Below, one piece after another: positions 32,967 through 62,807 of a DNA stretch of 64,000 nt. Under the pieces are notes generated by a model. That model did not search any database. It was not told the DNA's origin and saw only the letters and a list, made by a program, of their open reading frames with translations. Position 1 is the first letter of the stretch, and each line of letters starts with the position of its first letter. The stretch lies in assembly GCF_025499425.1 (NCBI RefSeq), contig NZ_JAIMCB010000009.1, forward strand, positions 62,001 through 126,000. The letters are read 5' to 3'. A program made the translations under genes and the position numbers. The stretch comes from Acidiferrimicrobium sp. IK. GTDB taxonomy: Bacteria > Actinomycetota > Acidimicrobiia > Acidimicrobiales > Palsa-688.

Positions 32967-33185
32967 GGCGGAGATTCTTTCCCAGTCGTCGCGGTTTCCA
33001 CCACTTCCCGTGATCCGGGGCCGGCCACCCCCGGCCGCTCCGCTGGCGACCGGGCCCAGAAACCGGCCGGGGCGGTGTAGCGTGGAGAGGTCCCTGCCTC
33101 GCCTCGGGCGAAGCGAGGCGCCCCTCCCTGAGGTGCCGGAGTACCGGAGGGTGTCTTGCGCCGGCGAGTAGAAGGAGCGTTACAG

Positions 33186-33626
33186 GTGGCGACGTCCGAT
33201 GAGGTGCGCTTGGTCGTACCGGCCATGCCGGAATACCTACGCCTGGCGCGGGTGACCGCCGCTGGGCTGGCCAGCCGCCTCGGCTTCTCCTTCGACGAAG
33301 TCGAGGACCTGCGGCTGGCGATCGACGAGCTTTGCTACGGCCTGACCGGTAACACCGGACGGTCGGGGCGGGTCGAGGTGCGCTACCTAGTCGCCACCGA
33401 CAGCCTGCTCATCGAGGGCGAGGGGCACTTCGAAAGCGCCGGCGCCACCGGCCCGGCGGCCACCAACGTGGCACTCTCCGAGTTGTCGCAGGTCATCCTG
33501 GCCGCCCTGGTCGACGAGCACGCCCTCACCGACGGTCCCGACGGTCCCCGCTTCCGGCTGGTCAAGCGCCGCCACACCGGGGACGGCAGCGGCGCCGAGC
33601 AGGGGAGCACGTCGGCTACATCATGA
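33186..33626 (+). CDS. rsbW: RsbW-like anti-sigma factor / HATPase_c_2 protein
   Basis: A 146-residue protein starting at GTG 33186, eight bases after AAGGAG. It has the helical opening MPEYLRLARVTAAGLASRLG and VEDLRLAIDELCYGLTGNTG, as in RsbW/SpoIIAB switch kinases that hold a stress sigma factor. The N box asparagine is not present (IDELCYG) and the G1 motif reads IEGEGHF instead of DxGxG, so kinase activity may be weak or lost. Its stop overlaps the sigma-factor start (ATGA), so the two proteins are made together. No anti-anti-sigma gene is next to it. Confidence 0.85.
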   Translation: MATSDEVRLVVPAMPEYLRLARVTAAGLASRLGFSFDEVEDLRLAIDELCYGLTGNTGRSGRVEVRYLVATDSLLIEGEGHFESAGATGPAATNVALSELSQVILAALVDEHALTDGPDGPRFRLVKRRHTGDGSGAEQGSTSATS

Positions 33627-34375
33627 GCTTCCAGCCCGCACAGCGCGAGCAGCTGCGCGCCAAGTTCGTCGAGTTCGCCCGCACCGGGGACGTGACCCTC
33701 CGCGACGAGCTGGTCGCTGCCCACCTCGGCCTCGCCGAGTACCTGGCGCGCCGTTTCGCCAACCGGGGCGAGCCCCTCGACGACCTGGTGCAGGTCGCGT
33801 CGCTCGGCCTGCTCAAAGCCGTCGGCCGCTTCGACCCCGAACGGGGCGTCGAGTTCTCGACCTACGCCACCCACACCATCGTCGGCGAGCTGAAACGACA
33901 CTTCCGTGACCGCGGGTGGGCGATTCGCGCCCCGCGACGCATGCAGGAGCTGTACCTCCGCCTCGGCAAGGTCGTCGCCACCCTCGGACAGGAGCTAGGC
34001 CGCTCACCGACCATCGCGGAGCTGGCGGCGGAAGTCGAGGTGTCCGAGGAAGAGGTCCTCGAAGCCCTCGAGGCGGGGCAGGCATACCGCTTCGCCTCCC
34101 TCGACGCGCCGGCCCCCGGCGACAGCGAGGGCGAGTCGCTGGCCACCCGGCTCGGCGAGGACGATCCTGCGCTTTTAGGCGCGGAGCACCGCGCCACCCT
34201 TTCCCCGCTCCTCAGCAGGCTGCCCGAGCGGGAGCAGATGATCCTCCACCTGCGATTCTTCGAGGGGCTCACCCAGTCGGAGATCGCCACCCGCCTCGGC
34301 ATCTCACAGATGCACGTCTCGAGGCTCCTGGCTCGCAGCGTCGCGCAGCTGCGAGCCGCCGCCGAAGCGTCCTAA
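33623..34375 (+). CDS. sigF: SigB/SigF/SigG-type stress sigma factor
   Basis: A 250-residue sigma-70 group 3 protein. Region 2 is seen in LRDELVAAHLGLAEYLARRF, EPLDDLVQVASLGLLKAVGRFDP and EFSTYATHTIVGELKRHFRD (residues 25-95). Region 3 follows (RAPRRMQELYLRLGKV) and region 4 is LSRLPEREQMILHLRFFEGL with TQSEIATRLGISQMHVSRLL. It would direct RNA polymerase to stress or stationary-phase promoters, controlled by the coupled RsbW-like protein. Full length, no damage. Confidence 0.95.
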   Translation: MSFQPAQREQLRAKFVEFARTGDVTLRDELVAAHLGLAEYLARRFANRGEPLDDLVQVASLGLLKAVGRFDPERGVEFSTYATHTIVGELKRHFRDRGWAIRAPRRMQELYLRLGKVVATLGQELGRSPTIAELAAEVEVSEEEVLEALEAGQAYRFASLDAPAPGDSEGESLATRLGEDDPALLGAEHRATLSPLLSRLPEREQMILHLRFFEGLTQSEIATRLGISQMHVSRLLARSVAQLRAAAEAS

Positions 34376-34393: not shown

Positions 34394-35323
34394 GTGCGGC
34401 TCCTCTTCATAGTCAACGCCTCGGCCTCGTCGGTCACCGCCCGAGCCCGAGTCGTCATCCAAAAGGCCCTCTCAGCCGACCACCAGGTCACCGTCGCTGA
34501 GACCAGCCGGCGGGGACACGCCACCCGGTTGGCCCAGGGCGCGGCGGCCGACGGCGCCGACGTGGTGGTGGTGCTCGGAGGCGACGGGACCCTCAACGAG
34601 GCGGCCAACGGGCTGGCGGGAACCGCCACCGCCCTCGGCGTCCTCCCGGGCGGCTCGACCAACGTGTTCGCCCGCACCCTGGGGATGACCAACGACCCGA
34701 TCGAGGCCACCGGGGAGCTGCTCGGCGCGCTCGGCCGGGGGTCGATCCGGCCCGTCGGCCTCGGCACGGTCAACGGCCGGGTGTTCCTCTTCCATGTCGG
34801 GTTCGGCTACGACGCCGCCGTGGTCGCCCAAGTCGAGCGGCGTGGGAGCCTGAAGCGCTACGCCGGTCACGCGCTTTTCCTCACCGCCGCGGTGAGCACC
34901 TGGTTCCGCCACTACGACCGGCGCCACCCGGCGTTCGGGCTGCGGGCCGAGCCTCGCGCCGCGACCGGCCCGGTCGACGAGCTCGACGACGGGTACTTCG
35001 GCATCTGCCTCAACACCAACCCATACACCTTCCTCGGGAACCGGCCGCTCAACGTCGCGCCCGGCACCGGCTTGGACTCCGGGCTGACCATGGTCACCCT
35101 GCGCCGGCTGGACATCCCAACGCTGTTGCCGCTCGTCGCCGGCGCCCTCCGGGGGCAGGGGGTGGAGGGCAGGCGGAACGTCGCGGTGTCCAGTGACCTG
35201 GCTCGCGTCAGCATCGAGGCCCACCACCCGCTCCCCTACCAGGTCGACGGGGACTACCTGGGGGAGGCGACCAGCTTCGATCTTCGCTATTGGGACGGAG
35301 CGATCCGCCTGGTCGTCCCCTGA
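34394..35323 (+). CDS. Diacylglycerol/lipid kinase (DAGK catalytic domain)
   Basis: A 309-residue cytoplasmic lipid kinase starting VRLLFIVNASASS at GTG 34394, 18 bp after sigF and probably co-transcribed. The nucleotide-binding motif VVVLGGDGTLNEAANGLAG lies near residue 60 and LGVLPGGSTNVFARTLGM near 82. The C-terminal lobe (YFGICLNTNPYTFLGNRPLN, YQVDGDYLGEATSFDLRYWDG by position) is the YegS/DgkB type. It would phosphorylate diacylglycerol or a related lipid. Confidence 0.92.
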   Translation: MRLLFIVNASASSVTARARVVIQKALSADHQVTVAETSRRGHATRLAQGAAADGADVVVVLGGDGTLNEAANGLAGTATALGVLPGGSTNVFARTLGMTNDPIEATGELLGALGRGSIRPVGLGTVNGRVFLFHVGFGYDAAVVAQVERRGSLKRYAGHALFLTAAVSTWFRHYDRRHPAFGLRAEPRAATGPVDELDDGYFGICLNTNPYTFLGNRPLNVAPGTGLDSGLTMVTLRRLDIPTLLPLVAGALRGQGVEGRRNVAVSSDLARVSIEAHHPLPYQVDGDYLGEATSFDLRYWDGAIRLVVP

Positions 35324-35380: not shown

Positions 35381-35396
35381 TGTGGCACAGGTCACA
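35381..35396. promoter_or_regulatory. CRP-like box upstream of whiB
   Basis: TGTGGCACAGGTCACA matches the CRP/FNR pattern TGTGA-N6-TCACA with one mismatch. It lies about 105 bp upstream of the predicted -35 box of whiB. Confidence 0.5.
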
Positions 35397-35498
35397 GACG
35401 AACTCCGGCGCAGGGTGCCATAACGCGCCTACCGTGGTAACCGCCGTTAGTGAACCTCGCTGACCAGCACCTTTCCTCGAATTTTTGGTCGAGAGGGG

Positions 35499-35527
35499 TT
35501 GCCAGGGGCGGAGCACAGCTTTACGCT
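35499..35527 (+). promoter_or_regulatory. whiB promoter
   Basis: TTGCCA (35499-35504), 17 bp and TACGCT (35522-35527) form a sigma-70-type promoter. It leaves a leader of about 75 bases with a strong AGGAGG ribosome site before GTG 35609. Confidence 0.6.
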
Positions 35528-35571
35528 GTTGCAACGCTGCGGTGAACGGACCAGTTTTTGTTACACCCACA

Positions 35572-35587
35572 CGTGAACTGATTCACA
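35572..35587. promoter_or_regulatory. CRP-like box in the whiB leader
   Basis: CGTGAACTGATTCACA has perfect GTGA-N6-TCAC half-sites and lies about 40 bases after the predicted transcription start, where a bound regulator would block elongation or initiation. CRP control of whiB1 is known in mycobacteria. Confidence 0.55.
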
Positions 35588-35608
35588 ATCTTCGCCAGGA
35601 GGCGGCCA

Positions 35609-35899
35609 GTGGCCCTTACTTGGAGCCGCAACATCGAATGGGACGTGGACGACTGGCGGGACAACGCATCCTGCCGGGATACCGACCCCGACCTGTTCTT
35701 CCCCATCGGGACCACCGGTCCGGCAATCGAGCAGATCGAGTCGGCCAAGCGGGTCTGCTGCGCCTGCGAAGCGCAGGAGGCGTGCCTGGAGTTCGCGTTG
35801 GCGACCAACCAGGAGTCCGGGATCTGGGGCGGCACCTCGGAGGAAGAGCGCCGCAAGCTGCGCAAGTCCTGGCTCGCCCGCCAGCGCCGCGCCAGCTGA
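35609..35899 (+). CDS. whiB: WhiB1-like Fe-S transcription factor
   Basis: A 96-residue WhiB-family protein that binds a 4Fe-4S cluster through Cys22, Cys50 (or Cys51), Cys53 and Cys59 (NASCRDTDPDLFFP, RVCCACEAQEACLEFAL). The G-I-W-G-G turn (residues 71-75) and basic tail EEERRKLRKSWLARQRR follow. The DPDLFFPIGTTGPAIEQI stretch resembles WhiB1/WblE more than other paralogues. It starts at GTG 35609 behind AGGAGG. The extra adjacent cysteine (CC) is a local peculiarity. Its long intergenic region contains a promoter and two CRP-like boxes. Confidence 0.95.
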   Translation: MALTWSRNIEWDVDDWRDNASCRDTDPDLFFPIGTTGPAIEQIESAKRVCCACEAQEACLEFALATNQESGIWGGTSEEERRKLRKSWLARQRRAS

Positions 35900-35962: not shown

Positions 35963-37438
35963 TCAGAGCTTCTCGAGGTCCTCGGGGCTGTTGTCCACTG
36001 GGATGACCAGCTCGACGATCGTGCCCCCGTCGGTGCGCATGTTGATGGTGCCGCCGAGCTGCGATCCGACCAGGCTGCGCACGATCGACAGCCCCAGGCT
36101 GGCGGTGTCTTCGATCACGAATCCCGGCGGTAGGCCCACGCCGTTGTCGCGGACGGTCACCCGGAGACTGGTCGGCGTGCGCTCTAGGTCGACGGTGACT
36201 CTTATGGTCTTGATGTCGACGGTCGACCCTTCGGGGAACGCGTGCTCGGCGGCGTTTTGCAGCAGCTCGGTGATGACCACCGCCAACGGCGTGGCCAGCG
36301 CGGCTTGAAGTTCCCCGGTCTCCCCGGTCGTGGTGATGTGGACCGGTCGGTCGCTGCTCCCCAGGTCCTCCGCCATCCGTACCAGTGAGGGCAGGATGTC
36401 GTTGAAGTCGACCTCGTCGGTCGTGTCGCGCGACAGGATCTCGTGCACCAAGGCGATCGAGCGGACTCTGCGCTCCGACTCCTCGAGAGCGTGACGGGCC
36501 TCCCCTTGGGGCAGCCGGCGCGACTGCAGGCGCAGGAGCGACGAGATGGTCTGCAGGTTGTTCTTCACCCGGTGGTGGACCTCGCGGATGGCGGCATCTT
36601 TGGACAGCAGCAGCCGGTCTCTCCGGCGCAGCTCGCTGACGTCGCGTAGCAGCACCAACGCCCCGGTGATGTTGCCCTTGTCGAGCAGCGGCACGCAGCG
36701 GAACACCATCGAGTCGCTGCCCTCGGTGACCTCCTCGGTGGCGGGAAGGCGAGTTGCGAACGCCACCTTGACCGCGGACTGGTCCAGGCCGGCCTCGTCC
36801 AGGCTGACACCTTCGATCCCCGAGTAGATGCCGAGACGGTGGAGGGCGTTGACTGCGTTAGGCGACGCGTAGTCGACCCGGGCGCTGGCGTCGAGGACGA
36901 GGACCCCGTCGCCGACGCGGGGCATCTCGCTGGTGACCACCTCGTCGATCGGGAAGGGGAACTCCCCCGCCGCGATCATCCGGGCCAGCCGATCGAAGAC
37001 CTCGACGTACACCCGCTCCAGCTCCCCCGGCCGGCGCCCCACCGACAGCGCCGACTCCCGGGTCATGAGCGCCACCAACTCGTCCTGCCACCGCACCGGG
37101 ATCACCACCTGGCGTCCCCGCTCGTTGCGCGATGGGATCGACACCTCGCCCTCGACGACGCTCCCCAGCTGCCAGGCCCGAGCCAGCAGGGGTCGGTCGT
37201 CGACGCCCATCACCCGGCCCACCAGATCCTCGAGGTGCAGGGTCTGGTTGGTCGTCGGTCGGACCTGGCCCACGACGACGAAGCGGTCGTCGCTGCCGTC
37301 GACGGGCACGAACAAGAGGAGGTCGGCGAAGCACAGGTCCGACAGCGTTCCCCACGACCCGACCAGCCGCTGCAGGTGCGCGGTTACCGGCTGTTCCAGC
37401 TTGGTGTGCTCCCGGACCAACTCCGCCAGCGTCGCCAA
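35963..37438 (-). CDS. pdtaS: PdtaS-like sensor histidine kinase
   Basis: A 491-residue soluble kinase. Residues 1-150 form the PdtaS-type GAF domain (TLSDLCFADLLLFVPVDGSD), 160-265 a PAS domain (VLVLDASARVDYASPNAVNA), then the HisKA_2 dimerisation helix REVHHRVKNNLQTISSLLRL (His near 287) and an HATPase domain (TELLQNAAEHAFPEG, VTVRDNGVGLPPGF, LGLSIVRSLVGSQLGGTI). In mycobacteria the kinase partners the RNA-binding antiterminator PdtaR; no such regulator is in the window. It starts at TTG 37438. Motifs are complete, so it should be active. Confidence 0.93.
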   Translation of the reverse strand: MATLAELVREHTKLEQPVTAHLQRLVGSWGTLSDLCFADLLLFVPVDGSDDRFVVVGQVRPTTNQTLHLEDLVGRVMGVDDRPLLARAWQLGSVVEGEVSIPSRNERGRQVVIPVRWQDELVALMTRESALSVGRRPGELERVYVEVFDRLARMIAAGEFPFPIDEVVTSEMPRVGDGVLVLDASARVDYASPNAVNALHRLGIYSGIEGVSLDEAGLDQSAVKVAFATRLPATEEVTEGSDSMVFRCVPLLDKGNITGALVLLRDVSELRRRDRLLLSKDAAIREVHHRVKNNLQTISSLLRLQSRRLPQGEARHALEESERRVRSIALVHEILSRDTTDEVDFNDILPSLVRMAEDLGSSDRPVHITTTGETGELQAALATPLAVVITELLQNAAEHAFPEGSTVDIKTIRVTVDLERTPTSLRVTVRDNGVGLPPGFVIEDTASLGLSIVRSLVGSQLGGTINMRTDGGTIVELVIPVDNSPEDLEKL

Positions 37439-61616: not shown

Positions 61617-62807
61617 TCACCGAATCGTAAGCTCCGGACGGAAGATCCGGGTCCGGCCGCGGGCCACGATCTCCTTGGCCAGGGCCGCGAACGCTTCGGC
61701 GACCTCGCCGGCCTGGTCGGCGACGGTGACCGGCTGCCCGCTGTCGCCTCCCTGGCGCAGCGCGGTGGCCAGCGGGATCTGCCCGAGCAGGGGAACGCCC
61801 AGCTCGCCGGCCAGTTCCTGGCCTCCCCCGGCGCCGAAGAGCTCGTAGCGCTTGCCGTCGTCGCCGGTGAACCAGCTCATGTTCTCGATGACGCCGCGGA
61901 GCGGGAGGTTGATCTTCTTGGCCATGTACGCGGTGCGCTGCGCGACCCGCTTCGCCGCCTCCTGCGGGGTCGTCACGACGTAGATCTCCGAGCTCGGCAG
62001 GTACTGGGCCATCGACAGGGCGACGTCGCCGGTGCCGGGCGGCATGTCGATGAGCAGGAAGTCCGGCGTCCCCCACTCGACGTCGACTAGGAACTGCTCC
62101 AGCGCCTTGTGCAGCATCGGCCCGCGCCACATCACCGGCTGGTCCTCGTCGACGAAGAACCCGACCGACATGCACCGCACGCCGTACGCGACCGGCGGGA
62201 CCATCTTGTTGTCGCGTACCGTCGGGTCGGCGTCGATGCCGAGCATCCCGGGGATGGAGAAGCCGTAGACGTCGGCGTCGAGGATGGCGACGTCGAAGCC
62301 GGCCTTCACCAGCGAGATGGCCAGGTTGACGGTGACCGACGACTTTCCGACCCCGCCCTTGCCGGAGGTGATCCCGATGACCCGGGTCGGGCTGGCCGGG
62401 TCCTGGAACGGGTTGGCCTTGCCTTCCTCGTGACCGAGGGGCTGCTGGCCGCCGGCCGGCGCCTGGGTGCCGTGGCTGTGGCCGGCGTGGCTCTGGCCGG
62501 CCTGGCCTTGGGCGCCATGCATCGCCTGCATGCGCTGGCGGACCCGGTCCAGCTCGTCGGGGGTCATCACCGTCAGCTCGACGGTGACACCCTTGACTCC
62601 GGGCAGGGGGGACACCGCCGCGGTCACCCGGCGGGTGATCTCGTCGCGCAGAGGGCAGCCCGGCACGGTGAGCGCCACGGTCACCGCCACCCGCCCCCGT
62701 TTGATGTCCACGGCTCGCACCATGTCCAACTCGACGATGCTGACGTGCAGCTCGGGATCGGTCACCGGACGGAGGGCGTCGATCACCTGCTCTTGGCTCA
62801 GGCCCAT
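61617..62807 (-). CDS. mrp: Mrp/NBP35-type Fe-S carrier ATPase
   Basis: A 396-residue protein starting MGLSQEQVIDALRPVTDPEL with an N-terminal MIP18 (DUF59) domain ending near residue 90, a His/Gln-rich linker (HAGHSHGTQAPAGGQQPLGH) and a ParA-type ATPase: ITSGKGGVGKSSVTVNLAIS near 148, LDADVYGFSIPGMLG, DFLLIDMPPGTGDVALSMAQ near 250. It would assemble or carry Fe-S clusters to target proteins. The usual CxxC bridge near the C-terminus of NBP35 is not apparent, as in many actinobacterial Mrp proteins. Divergent from the SufR-like regulator. Confidence 0.93.
   Translation of the reverse strand: MGLSQEQVIDALRPVTDPELHVSIVELDMVRAVDIKRGRVAVTVALTVPGCPLRDEITRRVTAAVSPLPGVKGVTVELTVMTPDELDRVRQRMQAMHGAQGQAGQSHAGHSHGTQAPAGGQQPLGHEEGKANPFQDPASPTRVIGITSGKGGVGKSSVTVNLAISLVKAGFDVAILDADVYGFSIPGMLGIDADPTVRDNKMVPPVAYGVRCMSVGFFVDEDQPVMWRGPMLHKALEQFLVDVEWGTPDFLLIDMPPGTGDVALSMAQYLPSSEIYVVTTPQEAAKRVAQRTAYMAKKINLPLRGVIENMSWFTGDDGKRYELFGAGGGQELAGELGVPLLGQIPLATALRQGGDSGQPVTVADQAGEVAEAFAALAKEIVARGRTRIFRPELTIR

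Follow-up and report, generated by a model that had tools for sequence, protein, structure and literature searches.

A predicted Rex operator in the leader of a whiB1 orthologue in a member of the Acidimicrobiia

Introduction

Upstream of a whiB1-like gene of Acidiferrimicrobium sp. IK lie two short boxes, each of which resembles a CRP site. The original prediction, made from the letters of the window (the whole 64,000-nucleotide stretch analysed here, positions 62,001 to 126,000 of contig NZ_JAIMCB010000009.1), placed both under CRP and proposed that cAMP control of this Fe–S regulator may be ancient. A Rex operator can be mistaken for a CRP box when only the raw sequence is seen, and the locus raises the question of which regulator reads each box. 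The mycobacterial precedent invoked for CRP holds for Mycobacterium tuberculosis (Mtb) whiB1 (PMC4117774), the product of which is described as essential and NO-sensing in that species (PMC9645806); the CRP side is covered by PMC9645806, PMC8026907 and PMC4117774. In the open-licence literature, the only paper found on Rex control of whiB1/wblE was PMC5355995, and we found no report there of a Rex–whiB1 link in Acidimicrobiia, of a fixed operator distance or of a loss in Mycobacterium.

The whiB1 locus and its two boxes

The locus comprises the following features (window coordinates).

34394–35323, + strand: diacylglycerol-kinase-family gene upstream of whiB1, conserved synteny
35381–35396, + strand: upstream box TGTGGCACAGGTCACA, candidate CRP site, at −228 from the GTG at 35609
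35571–35588, + strand: leader box ACGTGAACTGATTCACAA, predicted Rex operator, 12/14 matches to TTGTGAANNNNTTCACAA
35597–35602, + strand: ribosome-binding site AGGAGG of whiB1, from sequence
35609–35899, + strand: whiB1 orthologue, 96 aa, GTG start, PF02467, best PDB match Mtb WhiB1
35963–37438, − strand: PdtaS-type sensor histidine kinase gene convergent to whiB1, PF12282 (GAF_PdtaS), conserved synteny

The gene is indeed a whiB1/wblE orthologue: it encodes a WhiB domain, its best match among solved structures is M. tuberculosis WhiB1 (5oay, E = 5.3e-26), and it stands beside the PdtaS-type kinase gene in a conserved order. NCBIfam assigned no family to the protein. Of 140 distinct loci compared, 125 have at least one of the two neighbours, the lipid kinase or the PdtaS-type kinase. 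Identity to the closest named public whiB1 loci reaches 96% at best; three public records titled Acidobacteriota, Thermoanaerobacterales and Bifidobacterium breve (L238, L304 and L312), titles that may be wrong, contain loci 86%, 72% and 71% identical to that of the window. Upstream of the lipid kinase and whiB1, 33156–34375 holds two overlapping genes, a small anti-sigma-like one (HATPase_c_2) and one of the sigma-70 family with regions 2, 3 and 4.

Both boxes were found where the original prediction had placed them, TGTGG-N6-TCACA at 35381–35396 and GTGA-N6-TCAC at 35573–35586, the latter in the leader past a transcription start that is itself predicted. The leader-box 14-mer GTGAACTGATTCAC spans 35573–35586 and the 16-mer CGTGAACTGATTCACA spans 35572–35587, at −37 from the start codon. 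Upstream box and leader box each match 9 of the 10 positions of TGTGA-N6-TCACA. As a single pattern each box is weak, and as a pair they are unusual: the window holds one GTGA-N6-TCAC against 0.76 expected, and when the 285-bp intergenic region was dinucleotide-shuffled 5,000 times, 39 shuffles contained one or more sites with 9/10 matches and none contained two. Across the genome, GTGA-N6-TCAC occurs 97 times against 14 for its reversed control and the CRP-type pattern gives 26 sites against 11 in the control; TGTG-N8-CACA is not enriched (12 against 28 for its reversed control).

Among relatives, 48 of 57 whiB-like genes have a site with at least 9/10 matches no more than 140 bp from the start; among named public loci the figure is 70 of 80 when 300 bp are allowed, one of the 80 having just 52 bp of upstream sequence. 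Owing to this conservation across relatives, the leader box is beyond chance. The call for a comparison of upstream regions thus gave a divided answer, with the leader box widely kept and the upstream box common to the genus only. Between promoter and leader box lies a GTTACA (35560–35565) that is seen again in those genera of the alignment that are closest to the window's.

A near-constant distance between promoter and leader box

A consensus promoter scan of the whiB1 upstream region found nothing, and the promoter was taken from an alignment of 17 family members, in which the TTG and TA columns of one promoter stand out as TTGN3-N17-TAN3T.

35499–35504, + strand: −35 element TTGCCA of whiB1, aligned TTG in 17/17 family members chosen for alignment
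35522–35527, + strand: −10 element TACGCT (TANNNT) of whiB1, after a 17-bp spacer, from the family alignment

With the spacer allowed to vary (TTGN3-N16-18-TAN3T), the pattern is again matched by 17/17 aligned members. Transcription of whiB1 is predicted to start near 35533–35534, which would place the leader box at roughly +38 to +56. It therefore follows its promoter, as expected for a repressor site if the predicted start is right, and from such a position Rex could block elongation. A block of this kind was proposed by the S. avermitilis authors for Rex at the wblE site (PMC5355995).

Among 68 upstream regions bearing the box, such a promoter occurs at most 95 bp before it in 46 (in shuffles, 95 of 3,400), and in 43 of these 46 the box lies 37–55 bp past the −10 element. 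A larger set of 115 distinct upstream regions, from which 30 duplicates had been removed and in which the candidate nearest the box was taken (a choice arose in 1 of 75), has a promoter in 75 and the box 36–56 bp past the −10 element in 68 of them. In this set the distance from −10 element to box has a mean of 45.2 and an s.d. of 3.8, and that from box to start codon runs from −30 to −108 with an s.d. of 19.9. A constant promoter-to-box distance, seen mostly in the window's order, suits a roadblock repressor.

The leader box resembles the Rex operator of wblE

We take the leader box for a predicted Rex operator, probably part of a conserved Rex control of whiB1, and put the probability of this reading at about 0.85. 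In the whole genome (5.08 Mb) it is the sole match to the published Rex consensus TTGTGAANNNNTTCACAA (PMC5355995) at two mismatches or fewer, and the reversed control gives none. Outside the core by which the 48 sites in relatives were selected, A is found at position 6 in 73%, T at 11 in 73% and A at 17 in 85%; with these bases preferred, Rex half-sites fit the leader box. Against Rex, the left half departs from the consensus: Rex has T at position 0, and 83% of the sites in relatives carry A there.

The closest known counterpart is wblE of S. avermitilis, of which whiB1 is named as the Mtb homologue (PMC5355995). Rex binds and represses wblE there, as established by EMSA, ChIP, qRT-PCR and a footprint past the start site, and its binding is weakened by NADH (PMC5355995). 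The two systems share an orthologous gene, the operator type and a location past the start site, close to the start codon, and the window-type synteny is found at Streptomyces-like loci as well. The footprinted wblE site, TCGTGAAAGCGTTCACAT, is present letter for letter in the leader of the syntenic orthologue in seven Streptomyces-like genomes (family f56, the name being inferred). The two systems differ in that the wblE operator spans +108 to +135, has an additional half-site (PMC5355995) and is known from binding, whereas that of the window, predicted at +38 to +56, is known from sequence and stays almost equally far from the promoter in all relatives with few exceptions. The physiology of the Rex–wblE pair is not simple, because under oxygen limitation wblE drops in S. 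avermitilis with or without rex (PMC5355995).

Co-occurrence of the leader box with rex and crp

Distribution was compared over 125 loci with synteny, one per genome, of which 105 come from genomes at least 90% complete. Rex was called at a Pfam match (PF06971), one match at 2.4e-4 (G130) being scored as absent; CRP was called at E ≤ 1e-15 in relatives and E ≤ 1e-30 in the phylum sample, and the weak matches of G055 and G060 were scored as absent. Dropped from an initial 141 loci were one duplicate (L144) and 15 with neither neighbour in the fetched stretch. Among the latter, L146, L147 and L148 carry the box in genomes with rex and without crp, L171 lacks both box and rex, and 11 lack the box (L057, L177, L186, L189, L191, L195, L198, L205, L216, L222 and L223), six of them second whiB copies of Streptomyces-like genomes.

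Presence of the leader box tracks rex better than crp. By a stricter box rule, which fired in 1 of 2,500 shuffled upstream regions, the box occurs among the 105 loci in 54/89 with rex against 0/16 without (p = 2.3e-6), and in 36/63 with crp against 18/42 without (p = 0.17); it is found in 18/31 loci with rex and no crp and in 0/5 with crp and no rex. A criterion blind to the Rex flanks gives 49/89 against 0/16 for rex (p = 1.4e-5; 0.0013 collapsed by family) and 36/63 against 13/42 for crp (p = 0.0099; 0.27 collapsed), family f61 being divided into its two genera for the collapse. These p-values overstate independence, because the genomes share ancestry. By the stricter rule 35 of the 89 loci with rex have no box. 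Seven loci come from genomes less than 90% complete and without a detected rex; six of them carry the box, for which missing sequence is the likely explanation.

The box also occurs in five genomes of the window's order without a detected CRP orthologue at E ≤ 1e-15 (G040, G050, G051, G052 and G059), all of which have rex. CRP was rejected as the main reading of the leader box, given that the box follows rex and is missing from all five loci with crp and no rex. The proposal of a conserved CRP site in the leader is not supported on three counts: the box tracks rex better, resembles the wblE Rex operator and occurs without a detected CRP orthologue.

Rex in this genome and Rex-type sites in relatives

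The genome encodes Rex (G000:C1:438264-438407, PF06971, E = 5.3e-19), which matches solved Rex proteins (PDB 3ikv, 5.4e-45). On the 3′ side of rex are an apparent siroheme-synthase gene and then hemA, as judged from translations read by eye. No operator was found before rex itself (best 8/14), and no second site at two mismatches or fewer exists in the genome. With the leader box as its only strong operator and none at rex, the usual Rex regulon is not visible in this genome. Operators at classical Rex targets, absent here, are present in some relatives, where a site of at least 11/14 accompanies 11 of 30 rex loci, 10 of the 11 within about 100 bp before rex by estimated gene starts.

In relatives, Rex-type sites precede other genes as well. 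A perfect operator lies before a gene with an alternative oxidase domain (PF01786) in G059 (L133, 1500–1517), and a Rex-type operator lies before a second whiB-family gene in G038 (L137, 1500–1517). In G040 a further Rex-type operator (L135, 1500–1517) lies before a gene resembling AtpI/AtpZ, perhaps the first of an ATP synthase operon; the PF09527 match of this gene, at 23.7 bits, is under the cut-off of 26.6.

CRP and the upstream box

A CRP homologue, which the original prediction had asked for, is encoded in the genome (SRERVNKAIAAF aligned to Mtb SRETVNKALADF). Its gene lies between CarD-like and DisA-like genes, both on the opposite strand (L001, 834–3150; translations read by eye). The upstream box is common to two species of the genus, as TGTGGCACACGTCACA in G001; 15 of its 16 bases are identical in the sister species, in a surrounding intergenic alignment that is 69% identical. 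It is not family-wide: in five other family genomes the CRP-like sites, at −210 to −232, differ from it. Some 145 bp separate the upstream box from the start that the conserved promoter predicts downstream of it. The box may be a genus-level CRP site, separate from the leader box.

Mycobacterium-like genomes

Family f61 includes a Mycobacterium-like genus, g95, with WhiB1 identical to the Mtb fragment at 70–74 of 74 positions in the four genomes compared. All four carry crp and lack the box, and none has a credibly scoring rex. Upstream of TTGACA they carry a CRP-type site, AGTGAGATAGCCCACG in L215 and L217 and variants of it in L220 and L221. In two genomes of a second genus of the family, g102, rex and the box are both present: the predicted operator TCGTGAAAGCATTCACAA accompanies a site at the place of the Mycobacterium CRP site, at the same gene. 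At the place of the operator, g95 reads TGTGAAA and then departs from it in the right half, which leaves half an operator only. The simplest reading of these four and two genomes is that Rex control was lost and CRP control kept in the Mycobacterium-like genomes; alternatively, the operator may have been gained in g102 rather than lost in g95.

In Mtb itself the CRP (Rv3676) sites belong to the same gene, and CRP and Rex sites share TGTGA-N6-TCACA (PMC4117774, PMC9645806). One CRP site is centred at −57.5 from the start, and the sites are in tandem, one activating and one inhibitory (PMC4117774). In contrast to the window's genome, the Mycobacterium-like genomes sampled lack both rex and an intact Rex operator.

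Discussion

By analogy with wblE, Rex would bind about 40–55 bp below the whiB1 transcription start when NADH is low, and bound Rex would stop RNA polymerase early in the transcript. A rise in NADH, as when respiration is limited, would release Rex, and the Fe–S regulator WhiB1 would be made. Binding, repression and the direction of the response in this organism are all inferred.

The same sequences could also be read as two CRP sites, the upstream one activating and the leader one repressing whiB1 in response to cAMP. Such an arrangement has a model in the tandem sites of Mtb whiB1 (PMC4117774), each box is one base short of the full CRP pattern, the genome encodes a CRP homologue, and the criterion blind to the Rex flanks links crp presence to the box before family collapse (p = 0.0099). 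We nevertheless consider it very improbable, given the leader boxes in genomes without a detected CRP orthologue, their absence from all five loci with crp and no rex, the Rex-like bases at positions 6, 11 and 17 outside the core, and an upstream box that is not family-wide. Dividing the boxes between two regulators is compatible with the Rex reading of the leader box: CRP would act from the upstream box on a distal promoter (TACCGT, 35430–35435), and whiB1 would integrate cAMP and NADH. The near-identity of the upstream box in a less conserved region of the sister species, the CRP-like sites of five other family members and the paired sites of g102 argue for this division; the lack of enrichment of TGTG-N8-CACA and the roughly 145 bp to the predicted start argue against it, and the distal promoter is a guess. 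It is a possible arrangement, somewhat doubtful as a whole.

A further reading dispenses with Rex, the leader palindrome acting as an RNA hairpin in the 5′ leader or being recognised by another regulator that co-occurs with rex. The palindrome would be transcribed if the predicted start is right, and the site is unique in the genome. The outer pair sets C opposite A in the window and in many relatives, on which ground a hairpin was rejected as the main reading; the distance to the start codon also varies, and the comparable site of the orthologous gene binds Rex (PMC5355995). Little variation in the arms says little here, as the sites were picked for that core. We hold this reading to be very improbable.

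Rex control of the leader box remains our preferred reading, and the Rex–whiB1 link appears old in Actinomycetota, being shared by Streptomyces-like genomes, the rex-bearing genus g102 and many members of the window's order. Of the proposed ancient cAMP input, the part that is supported is an old control, which is more likely exerted by NADH through Rex than by cAMP. A broader history can be offered tentatively, at somewhat less than an even chance. Rex control of whiB1 would be ancestral in Actinomycetota, with the operator held almost fixed at about 45 bp past the −10 element and a geometry-set, promoter-proximal block in the window's order; the strong Rex targets of the genus would have shrunk to whiB1; and in Mycobacterium rex would have been lost and the operator would have decayed beside the CRP site, so that whiB1 passed from NADH to cAMP control.

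If this is true, whiB1 came under NADH-responsive Rex early in the phylum and the mycobacteria lost that input, a case of regulatory rewiring. In a deep branch of the Actinobacteria, an Fe–S redox regulator would be placed under a sensor of respiration.
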